37,010 nt of DNA, taken from Candidatus Omnitrophota bacterium (GTDB taxonomy: Bacteria > Omnitrophota > Gorgyraeia > Gorgyraeales > Gorgyraeaceae). Location: NCBI GenBank assembly GCA_030691625.1, contig JAUYDX010000046.1, forward strand, positions 1 through 37,010, read 5' to 3'. Under the pieces are notes generated by a model. The model was given only the letters and a program-made list of their open reading frames with translations, was not told where the DNA came from and made no database searches. Below, one piece after another: positions 3,408 to 34,695 of the stretch; position 1 is the first letter of the stretch; each line of letters begins with the position of its first letter. A program made the translations under genes and the position numbers.

Positions 3408-3436
3408 GTAGGGACAGAACAATGTTCTGTCCCTAC
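3408..3436. repeat. Family C palindromic element, copy C1 (29 nt, 14-1-14 palindrome)
   Basis: GTAGGGACAGAACA-A-TGTTCTGTCCCTAC; contains the TAG stop of lpxI on the minus strand. Confidence 0.85.
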
Positions 3437-4236
3437 ACAGCTACTATTGTTATTCCAGCCTCATCTGCAAGTTTCAGGGTTTCTTCTTTATCTATCACGA
3501 GCGTCTTATTCGCCTCTATTGCGATACAGGCTGCCTTTACTTCCCGCAATAACTTTATTGTCTCCGGCCCTATAACAGGCACGTCAAACCTCATATCCTG
3601 CCTGGGCTTCGTAACTTTTATAACTACAATGCCTTCTTTCCCGTATTTTGCCGCGCGCCTTATTGCCTCGTCAGTGCCTTCGATGGATTCTACAGCCAGG
3701 ACCACCATGTTCTTGACAGCGATAGACTGGCCCAGGTCCAGGCCTGCGATAGCCTTGGCAATCCTGCGTCCGAAATCTATATCCTTTAAAATTTTATCCT
3801 CTGGCGCCCGGCTGGTCAAAACGCCTTTTTTCGGAAGGTACTCGGACAAAAACGTTATGGAGCTCAAAACCTTTATGCCCTTAAACTCTAAAAGCCTCGC
3901 AACGCCGCCTATTATAGAATCTGTCTTTTTATCCTTCAGCGCCCCTAAAAGGAGCTCCATCTTTTTGTCTATTTTAATGGTGCTGTCAAAAAGCAGCTTG
4001 TGCCTTACCTGGCCGGCCATCACAATGGAGCGGATATTTTCCTCTTTAAGAATTAATAACAGCCTTTCTAATTCTCCCACACCAAGCCAGTAAATCTTAT
4101 TCACAAATTTTTCTAAGTCTTTTGATGTCTCCTCGTTTATGCCTATCGCTACTACCTCAACGCCTTTTTTCCTGGCGCTCTCGGCAAATATAATAGGAAA
4201 CCTGCCGCTACCAGCTATAAGCCCAACCCTATTAAC
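3433..4236 (-). CDS. lpxI: LpxI-family UDP-2,3-diacylglucosamine pyrophosphatase (DUF1009)
   Basis: MVNRVGLIAGSGRFPIIFAESARKKGVEVVAIG...; start trimmed to the internal Met since the upstream part of the ORF is family A repeat. Confidence 0.9.
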   Translation of the reverse strand, partial: VNRVGLIAGSGRFPIIFAESARKKGVEVVAIGINEETSKDLEKFVNKIYWLGVGELERLLLILKEENIRSIVMAGQVRHKLLFDSTIKIDKKMELLLGALKDKKTDSIIGGVARLLEFKGIKVLSSITFLSEYLPKKGVLTSRAPEDKILKDIDFGRRIAKAIAGLDLGQSIAVKNMVVLAVESIEGTDEAIRRAAKYGKEGIVVIKVTKPRQDMRFDVPVIGPETIKLLREVKAACIAIEANKTLVIDKEETLKLADEAGITIVAV

Positions 4237-4248
4237 CATCTTTTGCGC

Positions 4249-4291
4249 AACAACTTGACACTTCAAACAATGTCACAAGTGTCAAGTTGTT
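4249..4291. repeat. Family A palindromic element, copy A1 (43 nt)
   Basis: AACAACTTGACACTT-CAAACAATGTCAC-AAGTGTCAAGTTGTT. Confidence 0.9.
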
Positions 4292-15602: not shown

Positions 15603-15645
15603 AACAACTTTACACTTGCGACAATGTTTGTAGTGTCAAGTTGTT
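15603..15645. repeat. Family A palindromic element, copy A2 (43 nt, variant II)
   Basis: AACAACTTTACACTTGCGACAATGTTTGTAGTGTCAAGTTGTT. Confidence 0.9.
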
Positions 15646-17018: not shown

Positions 17019-18035
17019 TCAGATCTTAAAAGACCCTAAAATATTGTCACTGGCCGGGCTAATCTGTGCATTTTGCCAGCTTTCTGCTGGTAAAGTCTTA
17101 TATGAAACAATCGCGGATTTGCCATCTAAATCTGAGTACCTTGCCAATACCGATGCCATTAATTCTGTGTCTTTTTGTGTGTAGGGGACGGACAGTGACC
17201 GTCCCCTACGAGCAAGACCGATAGGGCTCGGGATATCCAGGATATCGAGTATGGTATCGCCGTCTTTCGCGAAAGTCATGAGCCTCTCATTTTCCTTTTC
17301 ATCCCGCCCAACGATAAATTTCAGGTTATCCGAAATCCTGAAATGCCTGCCGACTTTTAAAAGGTGCAGGTCGCTTATGTCATAATCCGGGATATATTTC
17401 AAAAGGTCCTTAAGCCTGGTTGAAAAATTCTCGTCTGTCAAAAGACATCCGCCGGCAGGGCAGGGATAATCATTTATGCCGAATTCTTTTGCCAGGGCTA
17501 TCTGCCTTACGCGCTGTCTGCCGTCTATATCCAGTAATTTCTCCCTGTCAATAATACCTGCTTGTTCCGGCAGGGTAGGTTCGAAAAATTTGGCTGATAG
17601 AGGCCTCACAATAAGGCCTTGGAGTTCGGATTCCTTTTCTATCGTCATTATTGCCTGTTTTCTCTGGGACATAGGCCTCTGGCCCATCACCTCTCCTGTT
17701 ATTATAAATGAAGCGCTTATCTCATCCATAAACTCTTTTGCTTTCTTAAAAGTAAAAATCCTGCAGTCAATGCAGGGGTTCATGTTCCTGCCTCTTGGAT
17801 ATTTGGGATTTTTAACGACCTCCATGTACTCTTTAGTGATATTCATCACTTTTATTGGGACATTGAATTCTTCAGCTACCTTTGTGGCCTGATGCTTACA
17901 GCCTTTGGATGTGCAATTGCAGAACACTGTCAAAAAATTCAGCGCATGCACCTCTATCCCCTGATCAAGCATCAGCTTTATAGCCAGGGTGCTGTCCAGC
18001 CCTCCAGAAAGTAACGCCACTGCCTTTTTATTCAT
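17019..18035 (-). CDS. PP-loop ATPase of the ThiI/MnmA-like tRNA thiolation type
   Basis: KKAVALLSGGLDSTLAIKLML PP-loop; NPCIDCRIF and PCPAGGCLL cysteine motifs; start trimmed to MNKK. Confidence 0.8.
   Translation of the reverse strand: MNKKAVALLSGGLDSTLAIKLMLDQGIEVHALNFLTVFCNCTSKGCKHQATKVAEEFNVPIKVMNITKEYMEVVKNPKYPRGRNMNPCIDCRIFTFKKAKEFMDEISASFIITGEVMGQRPMSQRKQAIMTIEKESELQGLIVRPLSAKFFEPTLPEQAGIIDREKLLDIDGRQRVRQIALAKEFGINDYPCPAGGCLLTDENFSTRLKDLLKYIPDYDISDLHLLKVGRHFRISDNLKFIVGRDEKENERLMTFAKDGDTILDILDIPSPIGLARRGRSLSVPYTQKDTELMASVLARYSDLDGKSAIVSYKTLPAESWQNAQISPASDNILGSFKI
17181..17209. repeat. Family C palindromic element, copy C2 (29 nt), inside the PP-loop gene
   Basis: GTAGGGGACGG-ACAGTGA-CCGTCCCCTAC. 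Confidence 0.9.
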
Positions 18036-18046
18036 CTTCACATCCC

Positions 18047-18089
18047 AACAACTTGACACTTGTGACAATGTCACAAGTGTCAAGTTGTT
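18047..18089. repeat. Family A palindromic element, copy A3 (43 nt, 20-3-20 perfect stem)
   Basis: AACAACTTGACACTTGTGAC-AAT-GTCACAAGTGTCAAGTTGTT; contains the TGA stop of rarA. Confidence 0.93.
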
Positions 18090-23664: not shown

Positions 23665-23707
23665 AACAACTTGACACTTGAAACAATGTCACAAGTGTCA
23701 AGTTGTT
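23665..23707. repeat. Family A palindromic element, copy A4 (43 nt)
   Basis: AACAACTTGACACTTGAAACAATGTCACAAGTGTCAAGTTGTT. Confidence 0.92.
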
Positions 23708-26202: not shown

Positions 26203-26245
26203 AACAACTTTACACTTGCGACAATGTTTGTAGTGTCAAGTTGTT
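26203..26245. repeat. Family A palindromic element, copy A5 (43 nt, variant II)
   Basis: AACAACTTTACACTTGCGACAATGTTTGTAGTGTCAAGTTGTT, identical to A2. Confidence 0.92.
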
Positions 26246-33990: not shown

Positions 33991-34212
33991 CTATTTAGAT
34001 ACGTATGGGTCAAAACCGCCTGCTGACAAAGGATTACAACGCATAATCCTTGCCAGGCCTTTTAATAGGCCCTTAAAAATTCCTTTATCTTCCACTGCCA
34101 TAATCGTGTACTGGGAACAGGTGGGATGGAACCTACATTGACATAACATTAATGAAGATATATAGTTATGATAAAATTTTATACTATTTATCAGTATATT
34201 TTTTAAAAACAT
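33991..34212 (-). CDS. yidD: Membrane protein insertion efficiency factor YidD
   Basis: [58 protein letters not shown]-like. Confidence 0.95.
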   Translation of the reverse strand: [73 protein letters not shown]

Positions 34213-34558
34213 CGTGTATTTCTCTTTCTATGGCAGTTGACAGGGTAGATTGGTTTACCTTGGTAGCAACAATAACAATATCAAAACCCGTAGGTAAAAT
34301 ACGCTTTGTATTCCTGTATGCCTCTCTGAGTATTCTTCTGATCCTGTTCCTTAATACAGATTTTTTCTGATGCAAACTCTTCTTGCAGATAAAAGCCGCG
34401 CGATTTGTAGGGGACGGTTTCAAACCGTCCCCTACAGCTTTTTTTAAGATATAAATATTAACTGACCTGGCCCTATGGAAAACGCCATTATCCAGAACAG
34501 CCTTTATAGCGTCGTTTTTCTTCAGGCGCTCTTTTAACGGAAAAGAGTTCAGGCCCAT
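34184..34558 (-). CDS. rnpA: Ribonuclease P protein component
   Basis: FPLKERLKKNDAIKAVLDNG...SVLRNRIRRILREAYR; carries an in-frame family C element. Confidence 0.92.
   Translation of the reverse strand: MGLNSFPLKERLKKNDAIKAVLDNGVFHRARSVNIYILKKAVGDGLKPSPTNRAAFICKKSLHQKKSVLRNRIRRILREAYRNTKRILPTGFDIVIVATKVNQSTLSTAIEREIHDVFKKYTDK
34407..34435. repeat. Family C palindromic element, copy C3 (29 nt, 14-1-14), inside rnpA
   Basis: GTAGGGGACGGTTT-C-AAACCGTCCCCTAC. Confidence 0.93.
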
Positions 34559-34695
34559 CAATGAGTAAGTTTGTGTCTGCCTTTTTGTCGTCGGCGTTTA
34601 AGGACTTTTCTGCCTGTGGAAGATGCCATTCTAGCTCTGAATCCGTGTTTGCGTTTGCCTTTTAAAAGGCTCTTGCGGGTAAGGTGTTTTTTCAT
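34558..34695 (-). CDS. rpmH: 50S ribosomal protein L34
   Basis: [45 protein letters not shown]; absent from the ORF track because of its length. Confidence 0.96.

Follow-up and report, generated by a model that had tools for sequence, protein, structure and literature searches.

How a palindrome comes to be read as ten codons of an intact enzyme gene is the question raised by a locus of Candidatus Omnitrophota, which we analysed within a window comprising the whole stretch of 37,010 nucleotides. The gene (17019..18035, minus strand) encodes a ThiI/MnmA-like PP-loop protein of 338 amino acids plus stop with Pfam matches to ThiI-like, MnmA-like and NFACT-R_2. The palindrome, a 29-nt GTAG...CTAC sequence designated copy C2 of family C (17181..17209, minus strand), is present exactly as GTAGGGGACGGACAGTGACCGTCCCCTAC and provides residues 276-285. 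Its minus-strand codons CGT AGG GGA CGG TCA CTG TCC GTC CCC TAC are read as RRGRSLSVPY, the first C of CGT belonging to the flank and the element to the other 29 of the 30 nt. With 13 of 14 arm positions paired, C2 is a near-perfect palindrome, its DNA hairpin reaching -12.1 kcal/mol compared to -3.8 kcal/mol for shuffles (z = -5.6), and the family C patterns of the window found no match in 100 dinucleotide-preserving shuffles of it. A previous sequence-only reading had proposed a second coding copy of the family at this position, and the open 338-aa frame confirms this. Our main reading, to which we assign a probability of about 0.8, is that C2 belongs to the GTAG-tagged REP-like elements, which a RAYT/TnpA_REP (HUH Y1) transposase most likely moves in the form of single-stranded hairpins.

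The PP-loop site is empty in the congeners G001, G004 and G008 as well as in every family-level orthologue recovered across it. None of these carries RRGRSLSVPY-like residues, and the orthologue comparison proposed in the sequence-only reading thus came out in its favour. Because orthologues lacking C2 read ARGKVTGED-like residues here, C2 is, as judged from the alignments, acquired sequence. In a predicted model of the protein (mean pLDDT 90, lower within the insert), residues 276-285 sit between the strand 272-277 and the helix 287-299, i.e., C2 is predicted to occupy a surface-type loop of the C-terminal domain. Family C fills the site in the source genome (G000) and in G009, where the palindrome has a different core, while the loop of G002, G006, G007, G010 and G011 (loci L050, L052, L055, L056 and L057) holds another, partly hairpin-forming insert starting with AGCGAAGCGAGC or a variant of it. 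The net gain amounts to 18 nt in G000 and 21 nt in G009, as against an element of 29 nt. The former description of C2 as a coding insertion therefore stands insofar as the sequence is acquired and in frame; it replaces loop sequence, however, and is no simple insertion.

In-frame copies, one criterion for a Rickettsia palindromic element, were seen in nine genes compared with orthologues. Besides the PP-loop gene, lineage-specific copies lie in the genes for RnpA, DnaE, RsmD, Tgt, KdsD, PGM and FabD and in a RACo-like gene, all names except that of the PP-loop protein having been read by eye from the sequence. Net gains were about 15 nt in DnaE, 18 in RnpA, 0 in RsmD, 15 in KdsD, 12 in PGM and 24 in FabD, and about 21 and 3 nt for the two copies in the RACo-like gene; Tgt was left out, its empty allele being too variable in length. 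Across the measured sites the gain thus ranges from 0 to about 24 nt and is never 28 or 29. This replacement may partly reflect ascertainment, since 28 or 29 nt alone would shift the frame and survival within a gene requires a compensating indel. The copy with the gain of about 3 nt in the RACo-like gene (L034, minus strand) is a second, decayed one, GTAGAGGCGGTCAGTGACCGCCCCCTAC, read in frame as VEAVSDRPLQ. In congeners, the corresponding loops of tgt (L082, L083, L086) and fabD (L183) hold other repeats, such as tandem TCACAGG or GGCTGGA units, and therefore appear to tolerate many inserts.

The pattern GTAGGG(N6-30)CCCTAC matched 37 sites on many contigs of the 1.44-Mb source genome and its reversed control none; pattern searches miss decayed copies, so that at least 37 sites exist, and a few extra copies have one altered end. 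With lengths of 29 nt (n = 22), 26 nt (n = 9) and 28 nt (n = 6), family C falls within the range of REPs, which are repeated, dispersed sequences of 20-40 bp. GTAG, as expected of a REP, stands at the foot of a short palindrome at all 37 sites, and the symmetry of the ends places it on both strands. The cores vary, are self-complementary and form recurring subtypes common to the whole genus. For exact GTAGGGG...CCCCTAC copies, the counts are 61 for G002, 41 for G005 and between 0 and 25 for the remaining congeners, and relatives in named genomes, found via the encoded protein, are Candidatus Omnitrophota. A second palindrome family, AACAACTTGACACTTG...CAAGTGTCAAGTTGTT, has five copies in the window (4249-4291, 15603-15645, 18047-18089, 23665-23707 and 26203-26245), mostly at gene boundaries, and related palindromes follow argB in G005 and G010.

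Two further family C copies lie in the window. The GTAG of C1 (3408..3436, minus strand) supplies the TAG stop of an upstream ORF (3433..4266, minus strand), which is putatively LpxI-like and for which the congeners stop at the identical residue. C3 (34407..34435, minus strand) is read as VGDGLKPSPT inside an rnpA-like ORF (34184..34561, minus strand), for which 10 other congeners were compared and lack the insert. Frame tabulation bore out the earlier proposals that C1, C2 and C3 use three different phases and that the copy in the stop-containing frame, C1, lies at a gene end, and the frame argument built on them extends to all 37 sites of the genome. The G-TAG phase holds a stop at every site (74/74 strand-phases) and the other two phases are often open. 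By mechanical ORF calls, 11 of 39 copies are intragenic, and the remaining 28 or so are found outside genes or at their ends. All 11 intragenic copies are in open phases (8 GTA.GGG, 3 xGT.AGG; P about 0.0003 under random strand and phase), and the genome-wide census found G-TAG-phase copies at gene ends only, never inside genes. We do not claim a preference for GTA.GGG over xGT.AGG, as 8 of 11 against 41% expected is weak (P about 0.035). In about eight cases a copy provides the TAG that ends a gene, either at the ancestral stop or close to it; in five such cases compared with congeners, the protein ends 0 to about 7 residues before the stop of the orthologues. REPs with GTAG that supply TAG stops or lie inside genes are already published (PMC3733652). 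The suggestion that insertion is frame-independent and filtered by selection fits this census. Neutral filtering alone, however, does not account for the filling of identical codons in several lineages.

Filled alleles are scattered over the genus tree in non-sister species, the tree being based on 1309 aligned residues from the flanks of the same genes as the sites, and the genomes of G003, G005 and G009 being 61-79% complete. The element was found in G000, G005 and G003 at DnaE, in G000, G002, G005, G003, G009 and G007 at KdsD, in G000, G002 and G003 at PGM, in G000, G002, G005 and G008 at RsmD, in G000, G002 and G005 at FabD and in G000, G002 and G008 at Tgt. Junctions are identical to the nucleotide at KdsD, PGM, RsmD and Tgt and lie within 3 nt at DnaE. 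Transfer of whole genes was rejected for DnaE, as its flanks track the species tree within 60 nt of the element (G005 to G006 0.97/0.93, to G003 0.87/0.82).

One explanation, which we rate as a serious contender at somewhat below even odds, is a single old insertion per site that was spread or retained via short-tract recombination between species or long-lived polymorphism, with cores changed or exchanged later. The scattered distribution, which costs about 17 events for seven sites under gains-only parsimony, would be accounted for in this way, as would the DnaE core, which is identical in G000 and G005 and close in G003, the asymmetric RsmD core common to G005 and G008, and the outgroup genera, which are empty at RnpA, DnaE, KdsD, PGM and the cleanly aligned RsmD sites. 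However, the DnaE flanks imply a transferred tract hardly longer than the element, and the shared-origin test of same-site cores was mixed: DnaE gave the best available match, but KdsD ranked among the worst, the cores of G000 and G005 being among the most distant possible. A more tentative and rather doubtful option is that certain codons of housekeeping genes serve as landing pads: GTAG palindromes would be inserted there, or swapped for others, at precisely the same codons in different species, in some cases with unrelated cores of equal length, while the flanks stay species-specific. If true, this would point to a site-directed or element-limited process of REP exchange, of which we found no description in the literature. 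Among GTAG-tagged REPs, a published precedent has different REPs at about one recB site in two Xanthomonas species (PMC3733652).

Regarding the candidate mobiliser, TnpA_REP enzymes act on GTAG hairpins in single-stranded form, which they recognise, bind and cleave, and the REPs of group 3 enzymes are perfect palindromes (PMC8266576). A RAYT flanked by the repeat, as in GTAG-tagged REP systems, was found in G002 and G003, not in the source genome. The orthologous genes of these two congeners (Y1 transposase, PF01797) carry family-type palindromes within about 150 bp, two on the upstream side and one on the downstream side, which measure 26-28 nt and are not of the 29-nt class of C2. GTAG-type palindromes with other cores flank related RAYTs in G014, G084 and G118 on both sides, each RAYT having its own, and another RAYT in G027 has a palindrome on one side. 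In the source genome (91% complete), none of three PF01797 genes is bracketed by family C, for which reason they were rejected as mobilisers, and no relative of the G002 RAYT was found at E <= 1e-15. One RAYT gene of this genome (L035, contig C96) occurs together with four copies of TTGGTGCCAGGCAC(G/C)GTGCCTGGCACCAA (72-98, 720-752, 1716-1744 and 2609-2637) and constitutes a separate palindrome-transposase pair. Moreover, 26-nt copies are preceded by GTTATCCACAA (L008, L016; L186 at about 2300-2950), which also precedes the outer palindromes of the G002 RAYT; GTTATCCACAA and the 26-nt copy are perhaps part of a longer mobile unit.

According to the REP/RAYT reading, the transposase would move the GTAG...CTAC element as a single-stranded hairpin. 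To our knowledge, REP transposition has never been observed directly. One copy would have entered the strand-helix loop of the C-terminal domain of the PP-loop enzyme, where about 11 native nt would have been lost, the reading frame being kept because the net change is +18 nt. A copy with GTAG in the TAG phase would terminate translation and persist only at the end of a gene, and a copy in another phase would persist within a gene only if that phase is open and the loop tolerates it. We infer that a RAYT moved C2, that it did so via a single strand and that selection eliminated all other outcomes. The data themselves show that C2 exists as a member of a family, that it was acquired and replaced native sequence, which frames the copies use and how they are distributed across the genome, and that G002 and G003 have a RAYT between palindromes of this family. 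Several points speak against this explanation: the missing direct observation of REP transposition; in the source genome, neither a RAYT bracketed by family C nor a relative of the G002 RAYT at E <= 1e-15; the 26-28 nt of the palindromes around the G002/G003 RAYT; the disappearance of 5 to 29 nt of target sequence, which the precise IS200/IS605 model would not lead one to expect; and the identical junctions in non-sister species, which are unaccounted for.

It is improbable that the palindromes are instead kept as functional RNA or DNA hairpins, e.g., as terminators, mRNA-stability elements or protein-binding sites, and are spread by selection and not by transposition. Strong hairpins, many copies directly after gene ends and arms that stay complementary in spite of differing cores would suit such a role, but 11 or more copies are found within unrelated genes, most congeners lack these, and copy number ranges from 0 to 61 within one genus. 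That RRGRSLSVPY is ancestral protein sequence, palindromic in DNA by chance, is refuted by the orthologues and contradicted by 37 near-identical palindromes elsewhere in the genome, and we give it practically no weight.

Among known systems, REPINs are paired REPs. Like family C, they are RAYT-linked, non-autonomous palindromic repeats (PMC3116915); family C copies appear to be mostly single palindromes. GTAG-tagged REPs with their RAYT (REPtrons; PMC3733652, PMC8266576) share the GTAG terminus, the short palindrome and the dispersed copies, as well as a RAYT bracketed in relatives, some intragenic copies and TAG stops at gene ends. Family C differs in having GTAG and CTAC inside the palindrome, and hence the tag on both strands, in the loss of native sequence, in the filling of the same codons in several congeners and in its phylum, Omnitrophota. 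The Rickettsia palindromic elements (RPE-1, RPE-4 and RPE-6; summarised in PMC3733652) are likewise in-frame palindromes in genes of functional proteins, including DnaE. Compared by description only, intragenic RPE-4 and RPE-6 are of the CGTC type with no linked transposase (PMC3733652), whereas family C is of the GTAG type with a RAYT in congeners.

In dnaE, kdsD, the phosphohexomutase gene, rsmD, tgt and fabD, identical codons are filled in some members of the genus and empty in others, which provides junction-level evidence that any model of RAYT action must explain, namely a net gain below the element length, identical junctions and different cores. In Omnitrophota, a phylum for which our literature search found no earlier report of such palindromes, short and probably mobile hairpins rewrite the loops of housekeeping proteins.
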